A stretch of 32,578 nt of DNA from contig NSIG01000024.1 of the NCBI GenBank assembly GCA_002737275.1, forward strand, positions 1 to 32,578, given 5' to 3'. Position numbers and translations under genes: made by a program. Positions 10,027 to 26,268 of this stretch are shown piece after piece (the stretch's first letter is position 1; every line of letters begins with the position of its first letter). The notes under the pieces are model-generated. The model searched no databases, was not told the DNA's origin, and saw only the letters and a list, made by a program, of their open reading frames with translations. The stretch is from Opitutia bacterium. Its GTDB lineage: Bacteria; Verrucomicrobiota; Verrucomicrobiia; Opitutales; Opitutaceae.

Positions 10027-12519
10027 TTGAATTCCCCAAAAAAACCCTTTGTCGATTCTGCCGTTTGGATTTGGTCTGCCGAGGGCTCTCACGGGGTGCC
10101 GGCGCGTGATGCCTCCTCGCCGTCGCACTACCAAGTCCGGATGTTTCGGCGCAGTTTCGAGGTCGCGGATCCTGCCGCGGTGACGTTGGCAGTTTCGGTT
10201 TCGGGCGATAGTCGCTATCTGTTTTTCTGTAATGGGGTGCTGATCGGGCGCGGCCCGGCGAAGGGCGACGTGAACCACCATTTTTTCGAGACCTTCGATC
10301 TCACGCCCCAGCTTCGTCCCGGCCGCAACGTTCTCGCTGCGCTCGTGCTCGACATGGCGCACGTCGCGCATCGGCCGGCATTGCTCGGGGCCCCGTGCTC
10401 GGTGATGACTTACACGGGCGGTTTCGTTTTGGAAGGAGCGGTGCGGAATCGGGCTGGAGCGGAGGTGGTGGATCTGCGCACCGATGCGACTTGGCGGGTG
10501 GCCGTGGATACGGCACACCGGTTTCAAAATGAGCACACGACCTTCGAGGGGTATCTCGGCTATTTTGAGCATCGGGTATCGGCGTTGATCCCGCCGGGTT
10601 GGAATCTCCCCGATCATGACGACTCGGCGTGGGCGCCCGCCCATGTGTTGTTCAAGGCCGAATTGCTCGAGAATCGCCGTGATCCCACCAGCCCCTACGG
10701 CCTCATCCCTCGGATGATTCCGCCGCTAGCCGAGGAAGCGATCGAGCGGTTTTCGGATGTCTTTGTGCCCGGGGGCCAAGATGCACCGGCCGGTTGGGCC
10801 GGGGTGATCGCAGGTGATTCCGCGGTGACGCTCGCGGCCGGCACGGAGGTGGAGGTGATCCTCGATCACGCGAAACTGACCTCGGCTTTTCCCCAGCTGG
10901 CGGTGGCGGGTGGTGCGGGCGCGACGGTACGGTTGATCTACGCCGAAGCGCTCCGTCTGTCTTGGGAGACGCCCGGCGCGCTTTTGTTGGGGCGCAAGCA
11001 GTCGCTCGCCAATCTCGCCTCGCATTTCGCCGACGAGAAGACCGGCTGGACCTTCGACCGACGCGGAAAAATTACCGGTTGGTGCGATGTGTGGGAACCC
11101 GCCGGCCATGGAACGGCCACGGCGCCCGAGGGGTTTGAGCCACTGCATTGGCGGGCCTACCGCTACGTCGGATTGCGGATCAAGGTCGGCTCGGTGCCCC
11201 TCGTGATTCACGGGGTCACCCAGCGTTTCACGGTCTATCCGTATCACGTCGCGGCCACCTTCGTTTCTTCCGATGCGCGCCTTGATCGCGTGTGGGCGGC
11301 GAGCATCGAAACCATGCGGCTCTGCTCGCACGAGACGTTCGAGGACTGCCCGCATTACGAGCAGATGCAGTATGCGGGCGACACGATGATCACGTCGAAG
11401 ATCGCGATGCTCGCGACCGCGGACTATCGTTTGAGCCGGCAGGCGCTTTATCACTTCGACTGGTCGCGGCTCTCCGACGGGCTCACCCAAAGCCGCTATC
11501 CGTCTCGGCTCGTGCAGATCATTCCGACGTGGTCGTTGCATTGGATAACAAATATCCGTGATTATTTTCTTTGCTCCGGCGACGCCGCCACGGTGCGCGA
11601 TTTGCTGCCCGGAGTGCGGGCGGTGCTGGATTGGTATCGGCGGCATACCGATGCCACGGGTCTGCCCGCAAAACTTCCGTTTTGGAACATCACTGATTGG
11701 TGCCCGTGGTGGCCCCGTGGCGTTGTGCCCGGTGCCGATTCCGGTCCGACCACGATTCTCAGTGCGCAATACATCCAAGGGCTCGCCGACGTCGCCGAAC
11801 TTCTCCGGCAACTGGGCGGCGCCCCGCGTCACACCGCCGAGATCGACGCCCTCGAGTCTGAGGCCGCGCGGCTGCGGGTCGCGTTGCACGCGCTCACGTG
11901 GAGCGAAAGCGAAGGACTTTACTTTGATCGTCCCGGTGGCCCCGAGGTTTCCCAGTGCGGGAACGCCTGGGCGATCATCGCCGGAGTCGCCGGACCTCGT
12001 GAAACGGCGCGCATTTTCCAGCGTTTCCCGCTCGATGCCAAACTCGCGCCCGGCTCGTTCTTCTGCTGGCATTTTATCTTCACCGCGCTCGTGCGCGCGG
12101 GGCTTTACGACCGGATGCCGACGTATCTCGGCCCTTGGCACGAATCGCTTGATTACGGTCTCACGACCTTCGTCGAAGAGAACTCCTACTGGCGCTCGCT
12201 CTGCCATGCGTGGTCCGCGCATCCCGCGCTCGAGTTTCTGCAACGCATCCTCGGCGTCGTGCCGACGGCGCCAGGATTCGCCCGCGTGACCATCGCGCCG
12301 CATCGCTGCGGACTGACTCATGCGACCGGCCGGGTGTGCACGCCGCAGGGACCGATCGACGTGGCGTGGCGCGTGGTCGAAGGCGCGTTCGCGCTTGAGA
12401 TCACCGCTCCGGTCGGGCTCGACGTCACGGTGGTCGCACCCGATGGCGCGTCGACGGTGCGTCGGTTCCCGGGCGGCACGTTCGCAGAAAAGTTCCCGCT
12501 TTTACCCGACCGCGTATGA
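10027..12519 (+). CDS. Alpha-L-rhamnosidase-like glycoside hydrolase (GH78 type)
   Basis: An 830-residue enzyme expected to cleave terminal alpha-L-rhamnose. The N-terminal third is beta-rich ('VWIWSAEG', 'MFRRSFEVADPAAVTLAVSV', 'LFFCNGVLIGRGPAKGD'), like the accessory sandwich domains of GH78. The (alpha/alpha)6 catalytic domain starts near 415 and carries the signature 'ETFEDCPHYEQMQYAGDT' (437-454), in which Asp440 and Glu445 are the likely catalytic acids. Downstream are 'TDWCPWWPRGVVPGADSGPT' and a C-terminal beta domain ('VVPTAPGFARVTIAPH'). No signal peptide is seen, so the enzyme is probably cytoplasmic unless exported by another route. The start is inferred: TTG at 10027 is the only usable start that keeps the conserved N-terminus, with an in-frame stop at 9955 and no ATG between. 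Its stop overlaps the next start (ATGA). Confidence 0.85.
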   Translation: MNSPKKPFVDSAVWIWSAEGSHGVPARDASSPSHYQVRMFRRSFEVADPAAVTLAVSVSGDSRYLFFCNGVLIGRGPAKGDVNHHFFETFDLTPQLRPGRNVLAALVLDMAHVAHRPALLGAPCSVMTYTGGFVLEGAVRNRAGAEVVDLRTDATWRVAVDTAHRFQNEHTTFEGYLGYFEHRVSALIPPGWNLPDHDDSAWAPAHVLFKAELLENRRDPTSPYGLIPRMIPPLAEEAIERFSDVFVPGGQDAPAGWAGVIAGDSAVTLAAGTEVEVILDHAKLTSAFPQLAVAGGAGATVRLIYAEALRLSWETPGALLLGRKQSLANLASHFADEKTGWTFDRRGKITGWCDVWEPAGHGTATAPEGFEPLHWRAYRYVGLRIKVGSVPLVIHGVTQRFTVYPYHVAATFVSSDARLDRVWAASIETMRLCSHETFEDCPHYEQMQYAGDTMITSKIAMLATADYRLSRQALYHFDWSRLSDGLTQSRYPSRLVQIIPTWSLHWITNIRDYFLCSGDAATVRDLLPGVRAVLDWYRRHTDATGLPAKLPFWNITDWCPWWPRGVVPGADSGPTTILSAQYIQGLADVAELLRQLGGAPRHTAEIDALESEAARLRVALHALTWSESEGLYFDRPGGPEVSQCGNAWAIIAGVAGPRETARIFQRFPLDAKLAPGSFFCWHFIFTALVRAGLYDRMPTYLGPWHESLDYGLTTFVEENSYWRSLCHAWSAHPALEFLQRILGVVPTAPGFARVTIAPHRCGLTHATGRVCTPQGPIDVAWRVVEGAFALEITAPVGLDVTVVAPDGASTVRRFPGGTFAEKFPLLPDRV

Positions 12520-13382
12520 TCCTCCGCCTTGAACATGCCGCCGGTTCCGCCGTCACCGTTTTTGCGGGCGAGGCCGTTTTACTCCGCTATGTTTACGCGC
12601 CGACGACTCCGGCCAACGAATCGCCGCGGCCCTACGCGCATCCGGTCAATACGTTGGCGGGCGACACCCTTACCAATTTCCGGCCCAACGACCATCCGTG
12701 GCACCACGCGCTGAGTTTCACGTTGAACCAAGTCTCGGGTGCGAATTTTTGGGGCGGCCCGACCTGCCGGCGCGACGAAGGCTACAAATGGCGCGACGAT
12801 CACGGCTCGCAGCAGCACGTCGCCTGGACCGCGCTTGAGGCGACCGGGGCGACCGCGGCGCTCAGTCATTCGCTGGAGTGGAAACGGCTCGGCGAAACGC
12901 TTTTTCGCGAGGAGCGCGCGTTGCAGATCGCCGTCGCGGCCGATCCCGCCGCGGCGACGTGGTCGCTGCGTTGGCGCAGTCACTTGGTCAACGTCAGCGG
13001 CCGCGCCCTCACGCTCGGCAACCCGCACTCCCATGGCGGGATGGTCGGCTCGCACTACAACGGGCTGCAGTTTCGCGGGGCGCGCGAGCTGCTGGATGAT
13101 CACCTCGATCCCACGATCAAACTGGTCGCCGAGGGCGGGCTGGAAGGCGTGACGGCGGTGCACGGGGCCGCGGCCCGCTGGATGGAATGGCACGGCCAGC
13201 TCGACGGCACTTTGCGCCGCGTGCGCATTCGCTTCGAGAACAACGCGGGTCCGTTGACGTGGTTTGTGAGGCGTAATTATCCGTTGGCGGCCTTCCCTTT
13301 GCAGGCCGAGTCCGATCTTGTGCTCTCGCCCGGGGCCGAACTGCTCGCTGATCACACCCTGACTTTTCAATCGCTCGCATGA
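12516..13382 (+). CDS. DUF6807/PmoA-like family protein
   Basis: A 288-residue protein resembling the DUF6807 family, often annotated as methane oxygenase PmoA-like although it is unrelated to methane oxidation. Landmarks are 'YAHPVNTLAGDTLTNFRPND' followed by 'HPWHHALSFTLNQVSGANFW' (residues 41-80), and 'GNPHSHGGMVGSHYNGLQFR' (about 168-187). The repeated His and Asp residues suggest a sugar-binding or catalytic beta-sandwich of the galactose-mutarotase kind. Family members commonly sit in carbohydrate catabolic clusters, but I know of no firmly established reaction. There is no signal peptide. It is translationally coupled at both ends (ATGA overlaps at 12516 and 13379), so it belongs to one operon with the rhamnosidase and the PLP enzyme. 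Confidence 0.8.
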   Translation: MILRLEHAAGSAVTVFAGEAVLLRYVYAPTTPANESPRPYAHPVNTLAGDTLTNFRPNDHPWHHALSFTLNQVSGANFWGGPTCRRDEGYKWRDDHGSQQHVAWTALEATGATAALSHSLEWKRLGETLFREERALQIAVAADPAAATWSLRWRSHLVNVSGRALTLGNPHSHGGMVGSHYNGLQFRGARELLDDHLDPTIKLVAEGGLEGVTAVHGAAARWMEWHGQLDGTLRRVRIRFENNAGPLTWFVRRNYPLAAFPLQAESDLVLSPGAELLADHTLTFQSLA

Positions 13383-14662
13383 AACTCGACCGCCGCCAAT
13401 TTCTCCAAGGCATGGGCGGCGGTGCGGCGGGGGCGTTGATCGCCGGATCCACCGCCCGGGCGGCGACCGCCAGCCCGGCGACATTACCCGCTTTTTCCAC
13501 GTCGACCTCGGCCGACTTCTGGCGGGCCGTGCGCGCGCACTTCCCGCTGCAGGACGATCCGGTTTACCTCAACTGCGGTGGCCTCGGACCGTCTTCACAA
13601 CGCGTGCTCGACGCGGTGTTTTCGACCATGCTCACCCTTCAGCAGCATTCGGAGACTGGTCACAGCCTGATCCAGCCGGCGCGGGAGATCGTCGCACCGT
13701 TTGTCGGAGCCGAGCCCCGCGAGCTCTGCTTCACGCGCAACGCCACCGAGGGTAACGCCCTGATCGCCGCCGGGCTCCGGCTGCGCGACGGCGACGAGGT
13801 GATCTTTGAGTCGCACGCGCATCCGGGCGGTTCGTTCCCGTGGTTCAACCAAACTAAGGAACGCGGCGTGACGGTGAAGCTCTTCGAACCCAGCCCCGTT
13901 TCCGCCGAGGAGAATCTCGCGCGCATCCGGGCGCTGGTGACGCCGCGGACGAAGGTCATTCAGGTGAGCCACATCACCTGCACCGACGGCCTCGTGATGC
14001 CCGTGCGGGCGATCGCTGAATTCGCCGCCGCGCGCGGCATCTGGTTTCACGCCGATGGGGCGCAGGCGGTCGGCATGGTTCCGGTTAACCTCAGTGAGCT
14101 CGGCTGCGACTCTTACGCCTTTTGCGGACACAAATGGCTGGGCGGGCCCCATGAATCGGGCGCGGTGTTCATCCGCCACGCGCGCCTCGAGGCGGTGGCG
14201 GTCACGGGCATCGGCTCGCATTCCGGCGATCTGCCGTTTCTGCCGGGCGAGATCCGCTACGTCGATGGCGCGGCCCGGCACGAATACGGCACCCGCAATG
14301 CCGGACTGATCGTCGCTCTCGCCGAGGCCGTGCGGTTGCAAAAAGAGATCGGCGTCGAGCGCATCGCCGCTTACGGCCGCGATCTGGCGACTTACCTTCA
14401 CGCCGAGTTTTCAAAAATTTCCGGGCTCGTCGTGCTCACGTCGGCCCGGCCCGAGCTGCGGGCGTCGATGGTCACGATCGCCCACCCGCGCGCTTCGGCC
14501 GGGGATTTTTTCACCTATCTCTTGAAGACGCACGGGCTGCGTTGCCGGCCGGTGACCGAGCAGAAACTCAATGCGGTGCGCATCTCGACCCACGTGTTCA
14601 ATTCGCCCGCCGAGTGCGAGCGGGTGGTCGCCGGCGTCCGAGCGGCGATGCGCGATCTCTGA
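13379..14662 (+). CDS. Tat-exported class-V aminotransferase-like PLP enzyme
   Basis: A 427-residue PLP-dependent enzyme of the class-V aminotransferase/cysteine desulfurase/isopenicillin-N-epimerase-like group. Residues 1-30 form a twin-arginine signal ('DRRQFLQGMGGGAAGALIAG'), so the folded holoenzyme should go to the periplasm. The fold-type I core shows 'VYLNCGGLGPSS' (near 63), 'ELCFTRNATEGNALIAAGL', 'IFESHAHPGG', 'VSHITCTDGLVMPV', 'FHADGAQAVG' with Asp226 for the pyridine nitrogen, and 'FCGHKWLGGP' with Lys252 as the Schiff-base lysine. The key residues are present, so it should be active. The reaction (epimerase, desulfurase or lyase) cannot be told from sequence. It is the last gene of the rhamnosidase operon and is convergent with a RidA-family gene 44 bp away; RidA proteins hydrolyse imines released by PLP enzymes. 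Confidence 0.88.
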   Translation: MKLDRRQFLQGMGGGAAGALIAGSTARAATASPATLPAFSTSTSADFWRAVRAHFPLQDDPVYLNCGGLGPSSQRVLDAVFSTMLTLQQHSETGHSLIQPAREIVAPFVGAEPRELCFTRNATEGNALIAAGLRLRDGDEVIFESHAHPGGSFPWFNQTKERGVTVKLFEPSPVSAEENLARIRALVTPRTKVIQVSHITCTDGLVMPVRAIAEFAAARGIWFHADGAQAVGMVPVNLSELGCDSYAFCGHKWLGGPHESGAVFIRHARLEAVAVTGIGSHSGDLPFLPGEIRYVDGAARHEYGTRNAGLIVALAEAVRLQKEIGVERIAAYGRDLATYLHAEFSKISGLVVLTSARPELRASMVTIAHPRASAGDFFTYLLKTHGLRCRPVTEQKLNAVRISTHVFNSPAECERVVAGVRAAMRDL

Positions 14663-14706
14663 TCGCCGTCATCATGAACCGCCGTGGTTTCCCGCTCAAC
14701 GCGCCG

Positions 14707-15249
14707 TCACGGCGTCGCGATTTCCGCAATCAACTCGATCTCGACCGGAGCGCCCGCCGGGAGGGCGTTGACGCCGACCGCGGCACGTGCGTGCCGACCT
14801 TTTTCGCCGAAGACGGTGACCAACAAATCCGAAGCGCCGTTGATCACCTTGGGCTGCGCGGTGAAGTCGTCGGTGCAGTTCACAAAACCCGTGAGCTTCA
14901 CGATGCGTTTCACTCTCGCGAGATCACCGACCTCGGCCTTGAGCGCGGCGATCAGTTGCAAGGCGCAGGTGCGGGCGGCGTCGGCGCCTTGGGCCTCGGT
15001 GAAGTCGCGGCCGACCTTGCCGGCGAGAAATTTGCCGCCGGCACCGCGGGCGATCTGGCCGGCGAGAAACACGAGGTTTCCGCTCCGCACGGCCGGCACG
15101 TAGTTGGCGATCACGGGCGGGACGGAGGGCAGGGTGAGGCCGAGCGCCGCGAGCTTGGCTTCGGGCGTTGGGTGCGTCTCGGCGGCGCCGGCCGTCAGCG
15201 ACCAGGCGGCTGCGATGCAGAACAGGCGAAGGGCGAAGGAAGGAATCAT
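14707..15249 (-). CDS. Exported RidA (YjgF/YER057c/UK114) family protein
   Basis: A 180-residue RidA-like enamine/imine deaminase. Residues 1-22 look like a Sec signal peptide (LRLFCIAAAWSLTAGAAE), which is unusual because most RidA proteins are cytosolic. The RidA core runs from about 30: 'VPAVRSGNLVFLAGQIARGA', 'AARTCALQLIAALKAEVGDL', 'RIVKLTGFVNCTDDFTAQPK' and 'HARAAVGVNALPAGAPVEIE'. Arg155 in 'HARAAVGV' matches the substrate-carboxylate-binding arginine needed for deaminase activity. The length and the 'LGLTLPSVPPVIANYVPAV' lead-in match the longer subgroup. It is convergent with the Tat-exported PLP enzyme and divergent from the propeller operon by 47 bp. A periplasmic role clearing reactive imines made by the neighbouring PLP enzyme is an attractive inference. 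Confidence 0.87.
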   Translation of the reverse strand: MIPSFALRLFCIAAAWSLTAGAAETHPTPEAKLAALGLTLPSVPPVIANYVPAVRSGNLVFLAGQIARGAGGKFLAGKVGRDFTEAQGADAARTCALQLIAALKAEVGDLARVKRIVKLTGFVNCTDDFTAQPKVINGASDLLVTVFGEKGRHARAAVGVNALPAGAPVEIELIAEIATP

Positions 15250-15296: not shown

Positions 15297-16316
15297 ATGC
15301 AGACTTTGAAATTGAAATTATTTTTCGCGGCGTGGCTCGCGGCCCTCGTTGGCCACGCGCCGCTTGGGGCGGCCGCGCCGAAACACGATTTGTATCTGAG
15401 CGTGTTGCTCAGCGGGCAGGGTCAGATCATGGGCGGCCGGGCGCCGGCGCTAAGCGGCGTCTATCGTTCGACGGACCGGCTCAAGGTGGAGCACGTGGGC
15501 TTCGGCCACATCCGGATGTTTCAAGTGATCGGCGATCCGCACTCGGCCGACGGGCTTTACCTCGCTGCGCTCAACGGCGTCGTGCACTCGAAGGATCGCG
15601 GCAAGACATGGCGCATTCTCACGGGCTGGGATATGACCGAGCCCAAGGGTCTCGTCATCGACCCCAACGCGACCGACCACATTTACGCGGGCTTGCCCGA
15701 CGGCATCGCGGTTTCACGGGACCGCGGCGCGACTTGGACGCGGATGAACGACGGCATCCGCCGCAGCTACACTCAGACGATTACGATTGATCGCACGCAG
15801 GCCGGTCGCGTGCTCGCGGGCACCGAGCTCGGCATCTATCTCACCGAGGATGGCGCGCGCACCTGGCGGCTCGTGCAGCCCACCACCGAGACGACTTACG
15901 ATCTGCGCCAATCGCCGCACGATCCCAAAATATTCTTCGCCGCCACGACCTCGAGCGGCGCGCTTTGGTCGGAAGATCGCGGGCGCACGTGGCGGCCCAT
16001 CGCCGGCGTGCCGAAGAAACACACGTTGCACAACGGTGTCTTCGACCCTTCGGCTGCGCGGCGACTCGTGCTGTGCGGCTGGGACGCCGGCCTGCTGGTT
16101 TCCGAAGATGGCGGGCGCACGTGGCTCGATCGCACCGCGGGTCTGCCCAACCGCCAGATTTGGAGCGTTGCCGTTGACCCCGATCAGCCCGGCCGGCTCT
16201 ACGCCTCGCCTTTTCAACAACCGGTTTACGTCTCGGAGGATTTTGGCCTTACTTGGAAACCGGCGTTTTTTGAGAAAGCCACTGCGTTCAATCTCACGTT
16301 TGTGCCGCGCTCATGA
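15297..16316 (+). CDS. Secreted Asp-box beta-propeller protein, copy 1
   Basis: A 339-residue exported beta-propeller. I chose the ATG at 15297 because it opens a clean signal peptide (MQTLKLKLFFAAWLAALVGH, mature end near 'GAAAPKHD'); the frame is open further upstream but encodes an Arg-rich, non-signal sequence. At least six BNR/Asp-box motifs follow: 'SKDRGKTW', 'SRDRGATW', 'TEDGARTW', 'SEDRGRTW', 'SEDGGRTW' and 'SEDFGLTW', alternating with strands such as 'DHIYAGLPDGIAV' and 'AGRVLAGTELGIYL'. Asp-box propellers include sialidases and also non-catalytic binding proteins; I do not see the Arg triad of sialidases clearly, so the activity is open. Its stop overlaps the start of the large partner (ATGA), implying a fixed stoichiometric relation. 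No Shine-Dalgarno is visible. Confidence 0.85.
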   Translation: MQTLKLKLFFAAWLAALVGHAPLGAAAPKHDLYLSVLLSGQGQIMGGRAPALSGVYRSTDRLKVEHVGFGHIRMFQVIGDPHSADGLYLAALNGVVHSKDRGKTWRILTGWDMTEPKGLVIDPNATDHIYAGLPDGIAVSRDRGATWTRMNDGIRRSYTQTITIDRTQAGRVLAGTELGIYLTEDGARTWRLVQPTTETTYDLRQSPHDPKIFFAATTSSGALWSEDRGRTWRPIAGVPKKHTLHNGVFDPSAARRLVLCGWDAGLLVSEDGGRTWLDRTAGLPNRQIWSVAVDPDQPGRLYASPFQQPVYVSEDFGLTWKPAFFEKATAFNLTFVPRS

Positions 16317-18160
16317 AGACTCTCTCCGGCCTCGCGCTCGCCGTCGTTTTTAGCGTGCCGCTCGCCCGGGCTCAGCCGTCATTCAAGGGGCCGATGCCCG
16401 ATGCCACGGTGATCGTCGACGCCTCGCTGCGTCGCGCGGCCTATCTCTCTCGCATCGACGAAGCGCTCATCTGGCGCGCGGCGATGGCCAAGCCCGGCGA
16501 ACCCAAAACCTTCGGGCTGGGGGAAATCGTGGCCAAACTCGCACGGCGCGAGGACGCCGCCGCCTGCTCGGAGCGCCTGATCGAGCTGATGAAGGCTCCC
16601 ACGGGGGACATGTTTTGGATGTTCCCGGTAACGGCGATTTACTATCTCGGCCGAGACCAACTCACCCCCGAGGCCAAGGCGGCTGTGCGGGAGGCGTGGC
16701 GGGTGTATATGCCGCTGAGGGGTGATACAGAAAATCATTGGGCGATGTATTACTCGTCGCTCTATCTGATGGCGCAGCAGTGGCCCGACGAACCCGGCGA
16801 ACGCTGGTTCAACGGCAAAAGTTCGCAGGAGAATTTCGAAGAATCGCGCGATTACCTGCTCCATTGGATGGAGCTCACGACCACGACCGGGCAGGGCGAA
16901 TACGACTGCACGCACTACATCGGCGAGTATGCGATTCCGTTGCTCCACCTCGCGACCTGGGCCCGGGACGCGGCGATGCGGCAACGCGGGCGGATGATGC
17001 TCGATTACGTTTTCGCCGATTACGCCGTCGAGACGCTCGACGGAATGTATGTCGGCGCTCATGCCCGCACCGATGACACGACGCTGCTTGAGAAATGGAA
17101 CGGATTTTCGTCGTTCTTCGGTTGGTTGTTGCTCGGCAATTGTCCGCCGACGGTCTCCTACGGCGGCTGGGGCATCTATTTCGTGGCGGCCGCAAAGAAC
17201 TACGAATTGCCCGAAGTGATTTACCGCATCGGCACCGATCGCGCCGGGACTTACGCCCACTACGAGCGCAAGCGCACCCGGCACCGCTGGCGTAACAGCG
17301 ACGTGCGTAACGCCCCGGTGTACAAAACTACCTACATCACCAAGGACTACGCCGTCGGCTCTGATCAGGGCGGCCTCCTTCAGCCGATCCAGCAGCACTC
17401 TTGGGATGTGACGTGGGCCGTGCCCGATCCGCGCGGCGTGCATAACACGATTTTCTCCAATCAACCGCATTTCAGCACCTACGAGCTGATGATGTATTTC
17501 TCGGAGAAACCCGATTTCATGCCGGCCACCGTCACGTCGCAGGGCAAGCCCACCTACATCAGCGAGTCGAAGTTGCTCGGTGGTTCGCCCTACGAGCAGA
17601 TCTTCCAACGCGATGACACGGTGATCTCGCTTTGCCACGTTCCGGCGGGCGCGAATTTCGAGCAGGTCAACGGCTTTTTCTCCAAAGACCTCGCGCGCGT
17701 GGAGGAAGACGCGTCGGGTTGGATCTTCACCCAAGGCGGCAACGCCTACATCGCTTATCGGCCGCTCGCGCCCTATGAATGGAAGCCGCTCGAGGTCGGC
17801 GGCAAACGCCTGCGTTCGCCGCAAGGTAAAAATGGCACGATCGTCCAGGCCGCGTCCGTCGCCGAGTTCAAGAGCTGGGACGATTTCAAAGCCGCGATCC
17901 GCGCGCTGCCGCTGGAAATCCGGCTTGAGCCCACGCCACGCGTGGCGTTCACGACCCTGCGCGGGAAGAAACTCGTCTGCACCTACGGTGCGGCCCCGAT
18001 CGTCGACGGCACGACGTTCGATTACTCCGGTTGGAAGCTCTTTTCTGGGCCTTACCTGAATGCTGAGGTCGGCTCGGGCAAACTCACGATCACCCACGGC
18101 GCACTCGAGCGCGTGCTGGACTTTAACACCGTCACGATCACGGATCGGGTGAAACCGTGA
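16313..18160 (+). CDS. Secreted toroid-like protein, copy 1 (possible polysaccharide lyase or hydrolase)
   Basis: A 615-residue exported protein that I do not recognise as a named family. Residues 1-20 are a signal peptide and the mature protein starts near 'QPSFKGPMPD'. Residues 30 to about 310 are helical, with 'GDTENHWAMYYSSLYLMAQQ' (137-156) and 'GQGEYDCTHYIGEYAIPLLH' (around 192-211), reminiscent of (alpha/alpha)-toroid enzymes. From about 330 the chain is beta-rich: 'YAVGSDQGGLLQPIQQHSWD' (346 on), 'WAVPDPRGVHNTIFSNQPHF', 'VNGFFSKDL' and 'GWIFTQGGNAYIAYRPL'. A toroid plus beta-sandwich is the plan of several polysaccharide lyases (heparinase II/III-like and related), so a new lyase or hydrolase family is a fair hypothesis. 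The conserved Glu-Asn-His and Gln-Gln-His clusters are candidate active-site residues. It is coupled by ATGA to the propeller upstream. The function is not established. Confidence 0.82.
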   Translation: MKTLSGLALAVVFSVPLARAQPSFKGPMPDATVIVDASLRRAAYLSRIDEALIWRAAMAKPGEPKTFGLGEIVAKLARREDAAACSERLIELMKAPTGDMFWMFPVTAIYYLGRDQLTPEAKAAVREAWRVYMPLRGDTENHWAMYYSSLYLMAQQWPDEPGERWFNGKSSQENFEESRDYLLHWMELTTTTGQGEYDCTHYIGEYAIPLLHLATWARDAAMRQRGRMMLDYVFADYAVETLDGMYVGAHARTDDTTLLEKWNGFSSFFGWLLLGNCPPTVSYGGWGIYFVAAAKNYELPEVIYRIGTDRAGTYAHYERKRTRHRWRNSDVRNAPVYKTTYITKDYAVGSDQGGLLQPIQQHSWDVTWAVPDPRGVHNTIFSNQPHFSTYELMMYFSEKPDFMPATVTSQGKPTYISESKLLGGSPYEQIFQRDDTVISLCHVPAGANFEQVNGFFSKDLARVEEDASGWIFTQGGNAYIAYRPLAPYEWKPLEVGGKRLRSPQGKNGTIVQAASVAEFKSWDDFKAAIRALPLEIRLEPTPRVAFTTLRGKKLVCTYGAAPIVDGTTFDYSGWKLFSGPYLNAEVGSGKLTITHGALERVLDFNTVTITDRVKP

Positions 18161-18173
18161 TGCCATTGCCCGC

Positions 18174-19190
18174 ATGAAAATCCGTTATTATCTGTTTCTG
18201 GGCGCCCTCAGCTGCGCCCTGCCGGTGCTTTCCGCGCCGCCAGCGCCGGAGTATGAATTCTTCATCGCGGCGAACATCAACCGCAACTACGTCATCGGCT
18301 CAAAAATCGTCACGACCAACGGCATTTTTCGGCGCGACGTTGCTGGTGCTTGGCAGCATGTCGGCTATAACGACACCGGCATCAGCGCCTTCGCCTTCGA
18401 TCCCCGCGACCGCGGCGTCATTTACACCACTACTACCAACGGCCTGTGGCGTAGCCTCGACGGCGGCAAACTCTGGCGCATCTGCAACGATTCCGAGATG
18501 ACCGAAGGCCTCGACGTGGCCGTCGATCCCAACGCGCCCGATCACGTCTATCTCGCTTTGCCCGACGGCATCGCGTTCTCCTCCGACCGAGCCCAACACC
18601 TCGAACGTCGGGAACACGGCTTGCCGGCGCGGGGCAAGTTCACGCGGGCACTGGCGATCGACCGCACCCGCGCGGGGCGCGTTCTGGCCGGTTGCGAGAT
18701 CGGGATCTACCTGACGGAAGACGCGGGCAAAAACTGGCGCCAAGTTCTGCCGACGAAAGATACGGTCGCCGACATCCAGCAATCCCCGCATGATCCGCGT
18801 ATCTGGTTCGCCGTCACTCAGAGTGCGGGCGCTTGGCGCTCGGCCGACGGCGGCCTCACTTGGATCCACGTGCCCGCCGCACCGGGTGACCGACCGCTCC
18901 ACAACGTCACCTTCGACGTCACCAATCCCAACCGTCTCGCCATCGGCAGTTGGGGCCGGGGCGTGTGGACGAGCGAAGACGGGGGACGGACCTGGACCGA
19001 TCGCAACGCCGGGTTGCCCGCTGGGGCCCGGGTTTGGCGGGTCGGCGTCGATCCGGCGGGCCGGCTGTTCGCGAGCGTGGTCGAGGAGACGCTGTTTCAG
19101 TCGGCGGATTTCGGGCGGGCGTGGCGCCCCGATGCATTGGCCGGTTCGGCGGTGAAGAAGTTCCTCTTGCTGCCCAAGGCCCCAAAGTAA
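18174..19190 (+). CDS. Secreted Asp-box beta-propeller protein, copy 2
   Basis: A 338-residue paralog of the propeller at 15297. The signal peptide is residues 1-20 (YYLFLGALSCALPVLSAPPA). Asp-boxes are 'SLDGGKLW', 'TEDAGKNW', 'SADGGLTW', 'SEDGGRTW' and 'SADFGRAW'. One blade is degenerate: 'SSDRAQHLERREHG' replaces the 'SRDRGATWTRMNDG' of copy 1, with the Gly and Trp of the Asp-box lost. Shared landmarks with copy 1 include 'VDPNAPDHVYLALPDGIAF', 'GCEIGIYLTED', 'QQSPHDPRIWFAVT' and 'LHNVTFD'. It lies 13 bp after copy 1's large partner and 18 bp before its own. The role is unknown; ligand binding or catalysis paired with the adjacent toroid-like protein is inferred from the conserved pairing. 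Confidence 0.84.
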   Translation: MKIRYYLFLGALSCALPVLSAPPAPEYEFFIAANINRNYVIGSKIVTTNGIFRRDVAGAWQHVGYNDTGISAFAFDPRDRGVIYTTTTNGLWRSLDGGKLWRICNDSEMTEGLDVAVDPNAPDHVYLALPDGIAFSSDRAQHLERREHGLPARGKFTRALAIDRTRAGRVLAGCEIGIYLTEDAGKNWRQVLPTKDTVADIQQSPHDPRIWFAVTQSAGAWRSADGGLTWIHVPAAPGDRPLHNVTFDVTNPNRLAIGSWGRGVWTSEDGGRTWTDRNAGLPAGARVWRVGVDPAGRLFASVVEETLFQSADFGRAWRPDALAGSAVKKFLLLPKAPK

Positions 19191-19208
19191 ACCCGCCGCC
19201 TTTTTTCG

Positions 19209-21095
19209 ATGAAACGCCCGCTATACCTTCTCCCGTTGCTCGCCTTGGTGGGGCTTCGTCTTGCCGCCCAACCCTCGTTTGAAGGACCGGTTCCATCGAC
19301 GGTGCCGGAGATCGACGAGGATCGGCGTCGTGCGGCTTACGTCCGCCGGGTGGACGAGATTCTCGGCTGGGCGGCGGCGGGAGGCAAGGCAACGACGGAC
19401 GATCCGGCGAAACTTGATCTAGCCATGATCGCGGCGAAAATCGTGCGTGGCGAGGATCTGCCCGGCTGCTCCCAGCGCGTGATCGAGCTGATGCGAGAGC
19501 CCGGCACCGGGCCTTTCTGGATGTTTCCGACCGTGTGCATCGCCTACCTCGGTCGCGATCGCTTGTCCCCGGAGGCGTTGGCCTCGATCCGCACCGCGTG
19601 GAAAACGACCCGCCAGCAGCGTGGCGACACCGAGAACCACTTCGTGATGTATTACGCATCGCTCTACCTCATGGCCGAACTTTACCCCGATGAATCGGCC
19701 GAGACGTGGTATTCCGGCCGCTCCTCGGCCGAAAATTTCGCCGAGGCCAGCGCATTTCTCATCAAGTGGATCGATACGAATACGACGGTCGGACAGGGTG
19801 AGTTCAACACCTCGAATTATATCGGCGAGTATGCGATCCCGCTGAGTTTCCTCGCCAACTGGTCGAAAGATCCCGCGATGCGCCAACGCGCGAGCATGAT
19901 GCTCGACTGGCTCTTCGCCGAACTGGCGACCTCTTCGCTCAACGGCGTGCTCCGCGGTCCCCATTCGCGCACCGATGAAGGCGCGGTGATCGAGCGGTGG
20001 CAGGCCATGACGTCCTTCTTCAGCTGGCTTTTGTTTGGCAACACGCCGCCCACGGCCGGCTATAGCGGCTGGGGACTTTATTTCGCCCCGCTCGCCAAAA
20101 GCTACCACTTGCCCGAGGTGACCTACCGCATCGCCACCGACCGAAGGGGCGACTTCATCCAGCGCGATCGCGCCCGCGTGCGCCGGCTTTGGCGTTACAG
20201 CGATGAGCTTTCACCGCCCGTTTATAAGACCAATTACCTACGTCACGACTACGGCGTCGGCTCGACGACGGGCGGCCTCATCGATCCGATCCAGTCCCAC
20301 GTCTGGGACGTCACCTGGGCCGAGTCCGACCCGAGGGGAAAACACCCCACGATGTTCTCGCTGCATCCGCATTCGTCATCCCGGGCAATGCAGTCGTCTT
20401 TCACCGCCTACCCCGAGCCCATGATCAAAGGGGTTACGTTTGAGGGTAAACCGTCCTACGATTCGCCCGACAAGCTCATGGGCAGCTCGCCCTTCGAGCA
20501 GGTGTTTCAGGACCTCGACACGGTGATCGCGCTTTACGCAATCGCGCCGGGCGAACGGTTTCCCCACATCAACGGCTTCTTTTCCAAGGACCTCATCAAC
20601 GTCACGGAGGACGACTCCGGCTGGATCTTTGCGCAAGGCGGCCGCGCTTATCTCGCCTATCGGCCGCTCGCGAGTTACCACTGGATTCCCTACCTTCACT
20701 ACAAATCCGGTTGGGCCAAACAACGGCTCAACCTTGGCGGCCGGGTGCTCACCAGCCCGCACCTCAACAACGGAACGATTGTGCAGGCGGCGGGGGTGGG
20801 TGAGTTCACGGATTTCGCGGCTTTTCAACGGGCGATCCGCGCGTTGCCGCTCGCGTTCAAGCTCGATCCGTTGCCCGCCGTGGAAATGACCACGCTGCGC
20901 GGGAATAAAATTTCCTTCACCTTCGGGACCGTGCCGCAGGTGAACGGCCGTGCGGTCGACTACCGTGCTTGGAAACTTTTCGAAGGCCCCCACCTCAACG
21001 CCGAGGTGGGCGGCCGGAAGCTCACGATCACCCACGGCCGGCTCGAGCGCGTGCTCGACTTCAACACCTTGTCCGTCACCAACCGCGTAAAATGA
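19209..21095 (+). CDS. Secreted toroid-like protein, copy 2
   Basis: A 628-residue paralog of the protein at 16313, alignable from end to end. The signal peptide is 1-20 (MKRPLYLLPLLALVGLRLAA) and the mature start 'QPSFEGPVPS' mirrors copy 1. Conserved blocks are 'GDTENHFVMYYASLYLMAEL' (139-158), 'GQGEFNTSNYIGEYAIPLSF', 'YGVGSTTGGLIDPIQSHVWD' (348 on), 'PFEQVFQDLDTVIALYAIAP', 'INGFFSKDL' and the C-terminal 'LTITHGRLERVLDFNTLSVT'. Differences between copies point to different specificity: copy 2 has 'NTSN' where copy 1 has 'DCTH', 'QSH' where copy 1 has 'QQH', and a 12-residue insertion around 'HWIPYLHYKSGWAKQRLNLG'. Its stop overlaps the M28 peptidase start (ATGA), so the peptidase is co-translated with it. 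No family name can be given with confidence. Confidence 0.82.
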   Translation: MKRPLYLLPLLALVGLRLAAQPSFEGPVPSTVPEIDEDRRRAAYVRRVDEILGWAAAGGKATTDDPAKLDLAMIAAKIVRGEDLPGCSQRVIELMREPGTGPFWMFPTVCIAYLGRDRLSPEALASIRTAWKTTRQQRGDTENHFVMYYASLYLMAELYPDESAETWYSGRSSAENFAEASAFLIKWIDTNTTVGQGEFNTSNYIGEYAIPLSFLANWSKDPAMRQRASMMLDWLFAELATSSLNGVLRGPHSRTDEGAVIERWQAMTSFFSWLLFGNTPPTAGYSGWGLYFAPLAKSYHLPEVTYRIATDRRGDFIQRDRARVRRLWRYSDELSPPVYKTNYLRHDYGVGSTTGGLIDPIQSHVWDVTWAESDPRGKHPTMFSLHPHSSSRAMQSSFTAYPEPMIKGVTFEGKPSYDSPDKLMGSSPFEQVFQDLDTVIALYAIAPGERFPHINGFFSKDLINVTEDDSGWIFAQGGRAYLAYRPLASYHWIPYLHYKSGWAKQRLNLGGRVLTSPHLNNGTIVQAAGVGEFTDFAAFQRAIRALPLAFKLDPLPAVEMTTLRGNKISFTFGTVPQVNGRAVDYRAWKLFEGPHLNAEVGGRKLTITHGRLERVLDFNTLSVTNRVK

Positions 21096-22492
21096 ACTTC
21101 ATTGTTCGAACCCTCTGCCTGCTCCCGCTGATTTTAACCGCGGAGCTTCCGGCCCAGCCTGCGCTCCCTCCGGTCGTCACCGCGCTGCTCGCGGATCGCT
21201 CGGGCCACGACTTGCTCGGGCGATTGTCGGACGATTTTGGCGGCCGAGTCACCGGGAGTCCGGCCAACCGTGCGGCGATGGATGCGCTCGTCGCCGAATT
21301 GCGCGCGCTCGGCCTCAAACCCGAGGAGCAGAAATTTACGATGCTCGGCTGGGCGCGCGGCGATGACGAGGTCACGCTGCTCGCGCCGCTGCCCGAGGCC
21401 CGGCGATTGCGCGTGGCGGCACTTTCATCCACGCAGGCGCACGCGCCGTTTGAGGCCGAGGTCGTCGACATCGGGCAGGGTCGTGACGCTGATTTTGCGA
21501 AGGCGGATGTGCGCGGAAAGGTCGGCCTGTTGGCGGCCAACACGACGGTTCCGCGCGGATTCTACGAGCAGGCCGCGAACGAACGCGGGATGCGCGGCGT
21601 GCTTTTTATCAATCGCGAGGGGGGCGGTCAGTTGCTCGCTCGCGCCGGTTCATTCGGTGACGAACCGTTGAAAATCCCGGTCTACAGCATCGCTCAGGAA
21701 GAGGGCCGGTGGATCAGTCGCCTGTTGGCGCGGGGGAAATCCGTGCGCGTGCGGATGCACACGCGTTCGCGTTGTATGCCAATTGAAACGTCGAACCTGA
21801 TCGTGCGTTTCCCCGGCCGCACTGCGGAGAAGATCGTGATCGGCGCGCATTTTGATTCTTGGGATCTCGGCCAAGGCGCGACCGACAACGGCCTCGGTGT
21901 CGCCCAAGTCTTCGGGCTCGCCAAATACCTTGCGGCACATCCGGCCGACCGCCTGCGTCCGATCGAACTCGTCTGGTTCAACGGCGAGGAGCAGGGGCTT
22001 TGGGGTTCGCGGCACGCGGCGCAGGCCGCGCGCGGCGAGGCCATCGCGGCGATGGTGAATCTCGATATGGTCGGATATCCGCTGTCGGTGAATGCCTGCG
22101 GCGACGACCGGCTCGTGCCGATGCTCAGGCGGTTTGCGGCGACGCTGCCGGTCGAGCGCTTGCGCGAAGGTGTCAAAAACATCGCCTGGTTGGCGAGCGA
22201 CCACACGCCTTACCAACTCGACGGCGTGAACGTCATCACCTTCGGTGCCCACATTGATCGCGAAATCGTGCGCTATTACCACGATTTCGCCGACACCTTC
22301 GACAAGATCGACGCGAAGATGATCGCTGAGTCGTCGGCGACGATCGGGGCACTCACTTTGTTCCTCGCCGATGCGCCCGAACTCACCGCGCAGCGCCGCC
22401 CGGCCGAGGAAATCGCCGCGACGGTGAAGATGTTTGATCTGACGCCCCGGCTGACCGCGATGGGGCTTTGGCCGCGCGAGGCGGGGCGATAA
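21092..22492 (+). CDS. Secreted M28-family metallopeptidase
   Basis: A 466-residue exported zinc aminopeptidase or carboxypeptidase of the M28 family. I chose the ATG at 21092, which overlaps the preceding stop (ATGA) and opens a signal peptide (VRTLCLLPLILTAELPAQPA); an open frame upstream is a shadow of the previous gene. Residues 140-215 look like an inserted PA-like domain ('VVDIGQGRDADFAKADVRGK'). The dizinc site is complete: His253 in 'IGAHFDSWD', Asp265 in 'GATDNGLG', Glu299/Glu300 in 'NGEEQGLWG', Asp325 in 'NLDMVGYP' and His397 in 'RYYHDFADTFDKID'. It should therefore be active on peptides in the periplasm or outside the cell. Its place as the fifth gene of the propeller-toroid operon suggests that the substrate carries a peptide or amide part. 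Confidence 0.92.
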   Translation: MNFIVRTLCLLPLILTAELPAQPALPPVVTALLADRSGHDLLGRLSDDFGGRVTGSPANRAAMDALVAELRALGLKPEEQKFTMLGWARGDDEVTLLAPLPEARRLRVAALSSTQAHAPFEAEVVDIGQGRDADFAKADVRGKVGLLAANTTVPRGFYEQAANERGMRGVLFINREGGGQLLARAGSFGDEPLKIPVYSIAQEEGRWISRLLARGKSVRVRMHTRSRCMPIETSNLIVRFPGRTAEKIVIGAHFDSWDLGQGATDNGLGVAQVFGLAKYLAAHPADRLRPIELVWFNGEEQGLWGSRHAAQAARGEAIAAMVNLDMVGYPLSVNACGDDRLVPMLRRFAATLPVERLREGVKNIAWLASDHTPYQLDGVNVITFGAHIDREIVRYYHDFADTFDKIDAKMIAESSATIGALTLFLADAPELTAQRRPAEEIAATVKMFDLTPRLTAMGLWPREAGR

Positions 22493-22504: not shown

Positions 22505-23377
22505 ATGATCACAAACCGTCGCGATTTTATAAAAACCCTCGGTTGGGTTGCCACCGCCGCCGGCGCGCCCCGGCTCTGGGCGGCGACGGGACCGTTGCCC
22601 GCGGCGCCCAACCTACACCGCTCGCCGCTGGTCTCGGCCATGGTGAGCGGCGGGACGATCACGAAAGACGGCAAACTGCTGCCCGCGGTCAGCGCCGCGC
22701 ACCGACTGCACTACGGGACGCGAAAGAAGATTCTATTGATTTTGCATGCGTCGCTGCCGGCTGATTGGGACAGCGCCGAGCAGAAGATCCGGCCGTTGTT
22801 CGAGACCGATGGCTACGCCGTCGAGTCGCTGCACCGTTGGAAAGGCCGCGAGGCCCTGAAAAAGATTGAGGATGCGGAGGCGTTTTTTGTCGGCGGCGGG
22901 GAGACCTTCCTGCTGTTGCGCACCTTATATGAAACGGGCCAGCTCGGGGTTTTGCGCGAACGGGTGTTGGCGGGAGGGGTGTTCAACGGTTCGAGTGCAG
23001 GCTGCAATATCGCGGGCACCGTGATCGGGGCGACCAACGATTTCCCGGTGGTTGACGTGCCCAGCCGAGCGGCGCTGGGACTGTTTCCGTGTGTGTTCAA
23101 TCCGCATCATCCCAAAGTCGGCGAGCCCGAGTATGCCGCCCGGGCGAACAAGATTCGCGGTTATCGCCGGGTGAATCCGGGCGAAACCGTGTTGGGCATC
23201 GGCAACGGTGCGGTCGCGCGCCTGCACGCCGGCAAAGTCACGGTCGAGGCGGGCCCCATCTTCATTTACGACGACGCCGGCAGCCGCGAGTTGCCCGTAG
23301 GTGAAGTTCCCGAGCTGACAAAGCTTCTGGCATCTGCGTCGGTCACGAGCCCGGCCGGTTTGTCATCTATTAGATGA
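22505..23377 (+). CDS. Tat-exported S51 peptidase (dipeptidase E/cyanophycinase-like)
   Basis: A 290-residue serine peptidase of the S51 family, whose members cleave Asp-X dipeptides (PepE) or the beta-Asp-Arg units of cyanophycin. Residues 1-26 carry a twin-arginine signal ('NRRDFIKTLGWVATAAGAPR'). The core shows 'KKILLILHASLPADWDSAEQ', 'DAEAFFVGGGETFLLLRTLY' (about 120-139), the nucleophile elbow 'FNGSSAGCNIAGTVIG' with Ser164, and 'FNPHHPKVGEPEYAARANKI' with His201 as the likely catalytic His. It follows the M28 peptidase by 12 bp and probably ends the operon. The last codons and stop (LSSIR) are formed by a 21-nt palindrome, so the C-terminus may have been changed by insertion of that element. 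The precise substrate is unknown. Confidence 0.88.
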   Translation: MITNRRDFIKTLGWVATAAGAPRLWAATGPLPAAPNLHRSPLVSAMVSGGTITKDGKLLPAVSAAHRLHYGTRKKILLILHASLPADWDSAEQKIRPLFETDGYAVESLHRWKGREALKKIEDAEAFFVGGGETFLLLRTLYETGQLGVLRERVLAGGVFNGSSAGCNIAGTVIGATNDFPVVDVPSRAALGLFPCVFNPHHPKVGEPEYAARANKIRGYRRVNPGETVLGIGNGAVARLHAGKVTVEAGPIFIYDDAGSRELPVGEVPELTKLLASASVTSPAGLSSIR

Positions 23378-23406: not shown

Positions 23407-23485
23407 CGCCGACGGTTTGGTCCAATTGGCTGAAACCTTGCGGAAAGCGGGGTGTCTGCCATTTTCTGTCTCTTCTTTCCCCGAC

Positions 23486-24223
23486 ATGAAAACGTTTCTC
23501 TCTTTCAGTTTGGCTCTGGCCGCACTCGTGCCGTCGCACGCGCAAAGTATCCGGCGTGAAGCGGTCAACGGCGTGGCCATCGGCGCGGTCGCAGGTGCGG
23601 TGATCGGTAACAACAGCGGCAGCTTGGGGCATAACGCATGGCGGGGTGCGGCCTATGGTGCCGGAGCCGGACTTTTGGTCGGAAGCGCAATCGGACACGC
23701 CAATCGGCGCGCCGAAGCTCACCGGCCGGCGGTCCACCACCGCGGCGATTATCGCCCCTCGTTTTTCTACTCTGATTTCCATCGGCCTCACTACGGTTAC
23801 GGCTACGTTTCGCGACCGAGTTTTTATCGGCCCTACGTTTACCGCTCGGAGCCGGTTTACGATTACGACCCCTCCGACACCTACGTCGCCGCTCGGCCGA
23901 ATTATGCCGGTAGCGGCCTGTTCCTAGGTGTGCTCGCCGGTGCGATTATCGGTCACAACAGCGGCAGTCTTGGCCACAATGCCTGGCGGGGTGCCGCCTA
24001 CGGCGCCGGGGCCGGACTCTTGATCGGTTCGATAGCCGAGAGCCGCGCCCGCCGCGCTGAATCCGCCGACGCCGCGACGTTGGCCAACGCTGCGGCCGCG
24101 CCGGCCGCGCCCGCGACCTCGGTCGGGCAGCAGGCGACCACCATCATCAACAACACCTATTACAACAGTCCCGCGCCCACGACCCCGATGAGCGCGGCGA
24201 ACTCCATGTTTGGCCGGAACTGA
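23486..24223 (+). CDS. Exported glycine-zipper protein with duplicated zipper
   Basis: A 245-residue exported protein. I chose the ATG at 23486 because it opens a signal peptide (MKTFLSFSLALAALVPSHAQ). Two near-identical glycine-zipper segments follow, at 34-77 and 149-191, each containing 'GSLGHNAWRGAAYGAGAGLL'. They are separated by a Tyr/His/Pro/Arg-rich linker ('HRPHYGYGYVSRPSFYRPYV'). The tail is Ala-rich and ends 'TTIINNTYYNSPAP'. Glycine zippers of this YMGG-like sort occur in envelope proteins that pack against or insert into membranes. It is the first gene of the envelope module leading to lpoB (49 bp to the next start). No enzymatic role is visible. Confidence 0.83.
   Translation: MKTFLSFSLALAALVPSHAQSIRREAVNGVAIGAVAGAVIGNNSGSLGHNAWRGAAYGAGAGLLVGSAIGHANRRAEAHRPAVHHRGDYRPSFFYSDFHRPHYGYGYVSRPSFYRPYVYRSEPVYDYDPSDTYVAARPNYAGSGLFLGVLAGAIIGHNSGSLGHNAWRGAAYGAGAGLLIGSIAESRARRAESADAATLANAAAAPAAPATSVGQQATTIINNTYYNSPAPTTPMSAANSMFGRN
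23585..23716 (+). repeat. Internal glycine-zipper repeat, unit 1
   Basis: Encodes residues 34-77 of the glycine-zipper protein. It matches unit 2 (23930-24058) closely: 'NSGSLGHNAWRGAAYGAGAG' is identical in both. Confidence 0.85.
23930..24058 (+). repeat. Internal glycine-zipper repeat, unit 2
   Basis: Encodes residues 149-191 of the glycine-zipper protein. Codons differ from unit 1 at several silent positions (for example ttggggcat against cttggccac), so the duplication is not recent or the peptide is under selection. Confidence 0.85.
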
Positions 24224-24272
24224 TCGCGCCGGTCCGTTTCCCATTCTGTTCGTTTCTACCACCACCAGCACC

Positions 24273-24902
24273 ATGAAAAACTCCTTTCGCATTCTCGCTT
24301 TCGCCACCGCGGCGGCGCCGGCCCTGTTTCTCACCGGCTGCGCCACCGGGGTTCAAAATCCCTCGGGCGTTCCCGTCACCGAGATGAAGGCCGATGAACG
24401 CGGCTTCGTCGCCGGCACGGGCGTCGAGTCGCAGGATTTGGTGGCCGTCACGGACAAAATGGCCCGCGGCGTCCTCGGCATTCCCGAGATCACGTCCGCC
24501 AAAGTCGCACCGCGCATCGTGCTCGATCCCGTGGTAAACGAGACCCGTTTTCCGATCAACAAAGACATCTTTCTTACCCGGATCCGCAGCCAACTGAACG
24601 AAAAGTCCATGGGCAAAGTGCGGTTCCTCGACCGCGAGATGATGAAGACGCTTGAGCGCGAGCGGGACCTGAAACGCGGCGGCCAAGTCACGGCCAGCTC
24701 CGATCCCAACGTCGTCGAGTTTCGCGGGGCCGATTATTTTCTCACCGGCAAACTCCAAGGCCTGACGACCAAGAGCTCGCAGGGCACGAGCGACTACATC
24801 CTCTACAGCTTCCGGCTCACCGACGCCCGCACGAGCGAGATCGTTTGGGAGAGTTCGTCCGAGATCAAGAAACAGGGCCTTGAGGACGCCGCTTACCGCT
24901 GA
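24273..24902 (+). CDS. lpoB: LpoB-like outer-membrane lipoprotein, penicillin-binding-protein activator
   Basis: A 209-residue lipoprotein. I chose the ATG at 24273, giving a lipoprotein signal with lipobox 'LTGC' (Cys23). The body fits LpoB: 'SAKVAPRIVLDPVVNETRFP', 'RIRSQLNEKSMGKVRFLDRE', 'GADYFLTGKLQGLTTKSSQG' and 'YSFRLTDARTSEIVWESSSE'. In Escherichia coli, LpoB reaches through peptidoglycan from the outer membrane to activate PBP1b; its length (about 213 aa) is close to this one. The following genes encode COG3014-like and YcfL-like lipoproteins, a neighbourhood I recall from gammaproteobacteria. Whether it activates a PBP in this organism is untested. The 'GARG'-like linker seen in some LpoB proteins is absent. 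Confidence 0.85.
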   Translation: MKNSFRILAFATAAAPALFLTGCATGVQNPSGVPVTEMKADERGFVAGTGVESQDLVAVTDKMARGVLGIPEITSAKVAPRIVLDPVVNETRFPINKDIFLTRIRSQLNEKSMGKVRFLDREMMKTLERERDLKRGGQVTASSDPNVVEFRGADYFLTGKLQGLTTKSSQGTSDYILYSFRLTDARTSEIVWESSSEIKKQGLEDAAYR

Positions 24903-24990
24903 GGCGCCGGTCCGGTCCCGATCGGTGTTTTTCCAATGGGCGGGTGCCGGCCTTGCGCCGCGCCCGCCTTTTTCACCCGCTTTCCGTCCG

Positions 24991-26226: not shown

Positions 26227-26268
26227 TCGCGAGTCCCACTTTACCACCACCACACCACGAATCCCGTT

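Follow-up and report, generated by a model that had tools for sequence, protein, structure and literature searches.

Polysaccharide lyases (PL) that join a helical toroid to an antiparallel β-sheet domain, such as heparinase III of family PL12, Alg17c of PL17, the GAGases of PL35 and the enzymes of PL15, PL33 and PL8, have to our knowledge been studied as single proteins; among Pfam families, those of the Hepar_II_III and Lyase_8 type cover PL8, PL12, PL15, PL17 and PL21. We have analyzed a contig from an Opitutia bacterium of the Opitutaceae (NSIG01000024.1, assembly GCA_002737275.1; 32,578 nucleotides, hereafter called the window), which carries two tandem copies of a gene pair encoding an Asp-box β-propeller, abbreviated as P, and a large protein of predicted lyase-like fold, abbreviated as T. 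T resembles the above lyases in its predicted fold of toroid plus antiparallel β-sheet and, by order and spacing, in a candidate Asn/His-Tyr-His set, the second His of which is mostly Gln in one clade of T; it differs from them in having no sequence-level match and a weak profile link to Hepar_II_III, and in being nearly always paired with or fused to a propeller. P resembles glycoside hydrolase (GH) family 74, 3b7f, Ycf48 and sortilin in being an Asp-box propeller of seven blades, but it is short, consists of a single propeller without an evident catalytic set and, at high score, is restricted to the neighbours of T. The reading we favor, and consider reasonably probable, is that T represents a new toroid-type lyase-like family and P its dedicated propeller subunit, the two degrading a glycan that contains uronate and rhamnose. 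No description of such a propeller/lyase-like pair was found in the literature searched, most subscription journals lying outside its coverage.

The two pairs of the window consist of four intact open reading frames, all on the forward strand between positions 15297 and 21095, as follows:

15297-16316, + strand: P1, predicted exported Asp-box β-propeller with seven blades (Pfam BNR and Sortilin-Vps10; model with a predicted local distance difference test score, pLDDT, of 93.7; match to 3b7f with Z 29.5)
16313-18160, + strand: T1, predicted exported lyase-like protein, toroid plus β half (model pLDDT 92.3; Foldseek and VIA matches to lyases; residue conservation)
18174-19190, + strand: P2, paralogue of P1 (40% identity; Pfam)
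19209-21095, + strand: T2, lyase-like paralogue of T1 (54% identity; TENH in the region of 143-144, Y204 and H364)

P1 and T1 overlap by 4 bp, T1 and P2 are separated by 13 bp and P2 and T2 by 18 bp, while the operon continues past T2, the stop codon of which is overlapped by the ATG of an M28 peptidase gene at 21092. These results bear out an earlier note on the same DNA, which had described two complete, adjacent pairs of a propeller and a large protein with precisely such P/T junctions, and had proposed that the copies are diverged yet complete and kept by selection. Indeed, T1 and T2 are 54% identical (E 0.0), P1 and P2, of 338-339 residues, are 40% identical (E 4e-83), and the ratio of nonsynonymous to synonymous substitution (dN/dS) lies between 0.04 and 0.28 in 12 comparisons of both copies among the window and its orthologues in loci L051 and L052, indicating that both copies are under purifying selection. 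All four proteins would be secreted, as the note had also held, since their translations begin with signal-like hydrophobic N-termini.

The pairing of P and T was then followed in three samples. A genome collection yielded 367 relatives, of which 80 were kept (79 loci); these were selected by a single motif and thus lean to close relatives, a bias that is smaller in scans of 57 related genomes and of 387 genomes of the phylum. In the fetched loci, merging T sequences with identical last 150 residues reduced 177 rows to 158, ten of which score below 500 bits, a border set after the score gap was seen: nine distant relatives and one fragment of a close T (L151, 2661-3557). P accompanies 141 of the 148 distinct T above this border, lying upstream in 92, downstream in 28, on both sides in 18 and fused in three. 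The remaining seven are L114, which lies at the end of a contig; L036, part of a T-T row; L048 and L049, divergent proteins about 30% identical to T1; L150 and L151, broken or partial copies from a single genome; and L040, a solo T. Conversely, T adjoins 157 of 159 P, the other two lying at the ends of the fetched stretches; since the P seeds were drawn from loci around T, this count alone cannot reveal P without T, which the two genome scans can. Among the 57 genomes, all 30 P hits of at least 319 bits are beside or fused to T (the next propeller scores 104.6 bits), and 30 of 32 close T places have an adjacent or fused P, the exceptions being the second T of a T-T row (G032) and the solo T already mentioned (G031). 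The scan of the phylum, in which up to three T and five P candidates per genome were scored, found 23 genomes with a best T match of at least 816 bits, followed by a genome at 466 bits, and P (E<=1e-60) in exactly the same 23; all 45 P copies lie within 300 bp of T or are fused to it, three of these T having been read from fetched regions. P-to-T junctions are tight: of 91, 39 overlap by 4 bp and another 44 have a distance of 0-30 bp. GTG and TTG starts were accepted for such overlaps, and the T-to-P junction counts also contain the spacing between T1 and P2 in tandem arrays. The pairing of P and T is thus close to obligate. The two families do co-occur adjacently, and close homologues of T are nearly all paired, contrary to the mostly unpaired homologues that would have spoken against the earlier note. 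Distant T-like proteins are not paired, none of the nine distant relatives below 500 bits having P. That the T gene almost always stands beside or is fused to the P gene suggests that both products work as one machine.

A phylogenetic tree constructed with T (FastTree; 156 rows after two of the 158 were dropped for T domains shorter than 450 residues) separates the two gene orders. One clade, with T before P, contains 26 T-P rows, three fused proteins and one unpaired T; the other, with P before T, contains 110 P-T rows, three unpaired T and two labelled T-P. The latter two are probably L098 and L151, which bear this label because no upstream P was seen. All three natural T-P fusions (L042, L140 and L141) form one starred clade, and in L140 and L141 stretches of 12 and 21 residues separate the T domain from the P domain. 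The tree places T1 and T2 in different starred sets, one of 27 and the other of 13 rows; hence the duplication is old, and a recent origin of the two window pairs is ruled out. Over the 18 loci that hold two P-T pairs, the distances of T correlate with those of its cognate P (r 0.77), and partner swaps within loci average an r of 0.20 and reach 0.56 at most, none of 500 swaps attaining 0.77; this mirror test dropped fused proteins, T below 500 and P below 280 residues, retaining 133 pairs. Together with the pairing in fetched loci and across genomes, the swaps reject chance adjacency of P and T.

Profile searches placed T in none of the characterized families. Neither T1 nor T2 reaches the cut-off of any Pfam family, those of the Hepar_II_III and Lyase_8 type included, the only lesser match being that of T1 to Imm33 (E 0.04); there is no NCBIfam match, and comparison with the sequences of the Protein Data Bank (PDB) returned nothing convincing (best E 0.87-1.2). 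The predicted structure of T1 consists of a helical half followed by a β half. Foldseek matched it at E<=0.001 to 17 chains, all from polysaccharide lyases and representing approximately nine enzymes; the matches span residues 41 to 575 or thereabouts, which cover the predicted helical toroid and then the antiparallel β domain. The top match in VIA is heparinase III (5jmd; Z 11.0, root-mean-square deviation [rmsd] 6.7, 405 residues aligned), and Alg17c (4nei; Z 10.1, rmsd 5.5, 427 aligned) lies within 1 Z of it. The model agrees with the impression, recorded in the earlier note, of a helical-then-β protein recalling polysaccharide lyases, and the profile searches did not yield the placement in a known family by which the note's proposal would have been refuted. 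Toroid glycoside hydrolases were considered and set aside, their best representatives (YgjK chimeras) matching with a Foldseek E of 0.02 or worse.

The putative active site of T1 comprises N141, H142, Y202 and H362, with counterparts in T2 in the TENH motif around 143-144, Y204 and H364. N141, H142, Y202 and also R252 are invariant in all 133 paired T analyzed, and H362 is invariant in the 108 P-T members. We compared the spacing of these residues with that tabulated for six toroid-fold lyases (PMC12088678, Table 4), in which, as far as this table goes, the neutralizing residue precedes Tyr by 53-57 residues and Tyr precedes His by 130-166; its PL8 and PL23 rows show Asn-Tyr distances of 59 and 63, with His preceding Tyr. 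In T1, N141 and H142 lie 61 and 60 residues before Y202, and Y202 lies 160 before H362. The resemblance is one of order and spacing only; the sole support based on alignment comes from a weak hhalign match, which puts the Asn-His of T onto that of Hepar_II_III proteins.

The lyase-like fold of T and its near-exclusive pairing with P are well supported by computation. Beyond these, we infer a lyase activity, its substrate, the role of P, contact between P and T and an associated amine chemistry, in the following scheme. T would break a uronic acid linkage by β-elimination outside the cytoplasm, N141/H142 neutralizing the carboxylate, Y202 serving as acid and base and, in the P-T clade, H362 possibly providing a second base. 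P, presumably non-catalytic, would bind T and help to grip the glycan or to shape the cleft, and the two pairs of the window, as old paralogues, would presumably serve two linkages of one glycan. The fold matches, the near-exclusive pairing and the natural fusions thus favor what had been proposed from the sequence, namely a unit of two secreted proteins, one of them lyase-like. If true, this would amount to a new architecture, in which a lyase-like family is passed on almost invariably with a propeller of its own, and proteins that profile libraries leave unnamed would gain a role.

Several observations weigh against this reading. One close T stands alone (L040), and five more distant T groups lack P. 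The TM-scores of the T model to lyases are low (0.15-0.45 in Foldseek), a VIA Z of about 10 is only moderate for a helical model, and the profile-profile match to Hepar_II_III proteins is weak (hhalign probability 9% and 17%). Co-divergence could arise from block duplication alone, so that it indicates pairs staying together and does not imply contact. Moreover, the position of H362 in 25 members labelled T-P is occupied by Gln in 22 (among them L107, L120 and L047), by Glu in one and by His only in L098 and L151. Finally, GH88 and GH105 enzymes, which are expected downstream of many lyases, were not found in seven of 21 relatives with a close T (G000, G001, G005, G010, G019, G020 and G027), of which G000 is 68% complete and G005, G019, G020 and G027 are 96-100% complete. 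These families do not serve here to mark a lyase pathway, and their lack argues against an ordinary endo-lyase pathway; an exo-acting lyase or a different reaction on uronates would be compatible with it. The latter two points would suit a T that retains the lyase fold for a different glycan reaction, such as hydrolysis or uronate epimerization, as would the presence of human dermatan sulfate epimerase (6hzn) in the VIA list, its Z of 9.4 being tied with those of the lyases. We nevertheless regard this alternative as unlikely, given that Asn/His and Tyr are invariant and that no hydrolase appears at a Foldseek E of 0.001.

Judging from the distant relatives, the T superfamily extends beyond the paired family. 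Propeller-less T-like proteins occur across the phylum (L147, L148, L152, L153, L156, L158 and L050), in tandem in L158 and L147. Among 20 neighbour proteins of unpaired T relatives, no clear common pathway was seen; they include rhamnosidase-like (L048), arabinofuranosidase-like (L050) and adenine-deaminase-like proteins (L148 and L152) and a TonB receptor (L158).

Both P1 and P2 match BNR and Sortilin-Vps10 (PF15902), the latter with 85.3 and 51.5 bits against a gathering cut-off of 33; however, the best stretch spans about 100 of 446 profile positions, which points to a shared Asp-box repeat and not to a sortilin. Both lie below the NCBIfam cut-offs for F510_1955 glycosylhydrolase (NF045728; 110.9 and 92.2 vs 175) and for Ycf48 (NF010237; 18.3 and 15.5 vs 326). 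The structure closest to the seven-bladed P1 model is 3b7f, a putative BNR glycosyl hydrolase (rmsd 2.9, 297 residues aligned), with GH74 propellers also near. GH74 enzymes combine two propellers and carry a catalytic pair of Asp residues, and P, a single propeller, was rejected as a member of that family. We consider it quite unlikely that P is itself a propeller hydrolase or lyase, forming with T a relay of two enzymes: profile and fold relatives do include GH74 xyloglucanases and 3b7f, but P has one propeller instead of two, and its invariant columns in 55 proteins are mainly Gly, Trp and Asp-box residues, D165 being the sole invariant charged residue outside the boxes (assigned by eye). 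Ycf48 assembly factors and dispase autolysis-inducing protein are also among the closest propellers, and could suggest that P helps T to fold or assemble, or inhibits it, without being a lasting subunit. However, T and P are permanently fused in three proteins belonging to a single clade, as would rather be expected of a lasting subunit, and we give the helper or inhibitor role very little weight.

The genes surrounding the pairs recur with them. Counts were taken over 91 clustered loci and, since many loci are cut short, they represent lower bounds:

4678-7752, - strand: TonB-dependent receptor (Pfam Plug, E 9.3e-14; at least 26 of 91 loci)
7837-8886, - strand: LacI-type regulator (Pfam LacI, E 6.3e-13; at least 35 of 91)
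9000-9806, - strand: protein of 280 residues, no Pfam match at E 0.01 (at least 39 of 91)
10027-12519, + strand: α-L-rhamnosidase-like glycosidase, start codon uncertain (Pfam Bac_rhamnosid6H, E 7.4e-21; at least 55 of 91)
12516-13382, + strand: DUF6807 protein, overlapping the preceding gene by 4 bp (Pfam, E 9.1e-52; at least 58 of 91)
13379-14662, + strand: class V pyridoxal phosphate (PLP) enzyme with a Tat-like (twin-arginine) N-terminus (Pfam Aminotran_5, E 4.8e-50; NCBIfam; at least 61 of 91)
14707-15249, - strand: Rid-family protein with a signal-like N-terminus (Pfam YjgF_endoribonc, E 2.6e-25; at least 50 of 91)
21092-22492, + strand: M28 peptidase (Pfam Peptidase_M28, E 3.9e-33; at least 53 of 91)
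22505-23377, + strand: S51 peptidase (Pfam Peptidase_S51, E 1.3e-31; at least 28 of 91)

Further members are GH127 (at least 21 of 91), GH51 (at least 16) and an SSF symporter (at least 15). The top PDB match of the rhamnosidase-like protein is rhamnosidase B (2okx, E 1.2e-57), and no signal peptide was seen on it. As a guess from its sequence, the protein at 9000-9806 is possibly a TIM-barrel isomerase. The GH127 of relatives (L116, 15574-17499) scores 425 bits against the NCBIfam model for aceric acid hydrolase, the curated cut-off of which is 950; it is thus related to that enzyme but not one by this rule.

A crude scan for hydrophobicity and twin-arginine motifs suggests export of the Rid (43 of 47 with a hydrophobic N-terminus) and M28 proteins (35 of 53), and gives a mixed picture for S51 (8 of 28 hydrophobic, 16 of 28 twin-arginine-like) and the PLP enzyme (15 and 23 of 64, respectively), that of the window scoring 22.0, just below the Pfam cut-off of 22.7, for its Tat-like start. 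Little or no sign of export is found in rhamnosidase (1 of 55), DUF6807 (3 of 58), GH127 (0 of 21) and GH51 (0 of 16) proteins. In the favored scheme, amino or aminoacyl groups would be handled by exported proteins (Rid, peptidase and, probably, the PLP enzyme), and the cytoplasmic rhamnosidase, with GH51 and GH127 in relatives, would finish the oligosaccharides.

The PLP enzyme, which resembles cysteine desulfurases and PvdN, and the opposite-strand Rid protein (window 13379-15249) recur beside the pairs, suggestive of extracytoplasmic amine chemistry in a glycan locus. The nearest precedent we have seen for this combination is the ong cluster for oxidized chitin, in which the PLP deaminase is needed as well as the Rid protein (PMC9537276). 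In that report, ong is likewise a glycan catabolic cluster with both proteins, its transporter being of the SSS type, but its PLP enzyme is of fold type III, not class V, and its catabolism is described as cytoplasmic, whereas the Rid proteins here look exported. The presence of Rid and PLP genes hints at an unusual and testable chemistry. A bolder proposal, which we regard as possible but doubtful, is that the pairs constitute a new two-subunit class of polysaccharide lyases in which the propeller is essential to the active enzyme, the His and Gln clades of opposite gene order cut different linkages of a single glycan, the uronates of this glycan bear amino or aminoacyl substituents, and the exported PLP and Rid proteins finish the amine chemistry outside the cytoplasm.

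Many Opitutaceae genomes contain the locus, most of them metagenomic, with record titles naming lakes, ponds or groundwater; one (L074) is a strain recorded as Opitutaceae bacterium EW11. Among the 79 loci, 76 carry Opitut- or Verrucomicrobi- titles, one is from Lacunisphaera and one from Cephaloticoccus (both Opitutaceae), and one is from Acidobacteria (L125). This recurrence in freshwater metagenomes suggests that the locus may mark an abundant and uncharacterized freshwater glycan. A survey of freshwater Verrucomicrobia emphasizes polysaccharides containing fucose and rhamnose, and the term polysaccharide lyase does not occur in its main text (PMC5615132).

An Rfam scan of the window found nothing. 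Outside the locus, a single bacterial protein (2431-4485, - strand) combines lipase maturation factor domains (LMF1 and LMF1_C) with subsequent Sel1 repeats, and consecutive Gly-zipper, LpoB-like, TPR and DUF1425 genes at 23417-26688 probably form an outer-membrane lipoprotein/peptidoglycan cluster.

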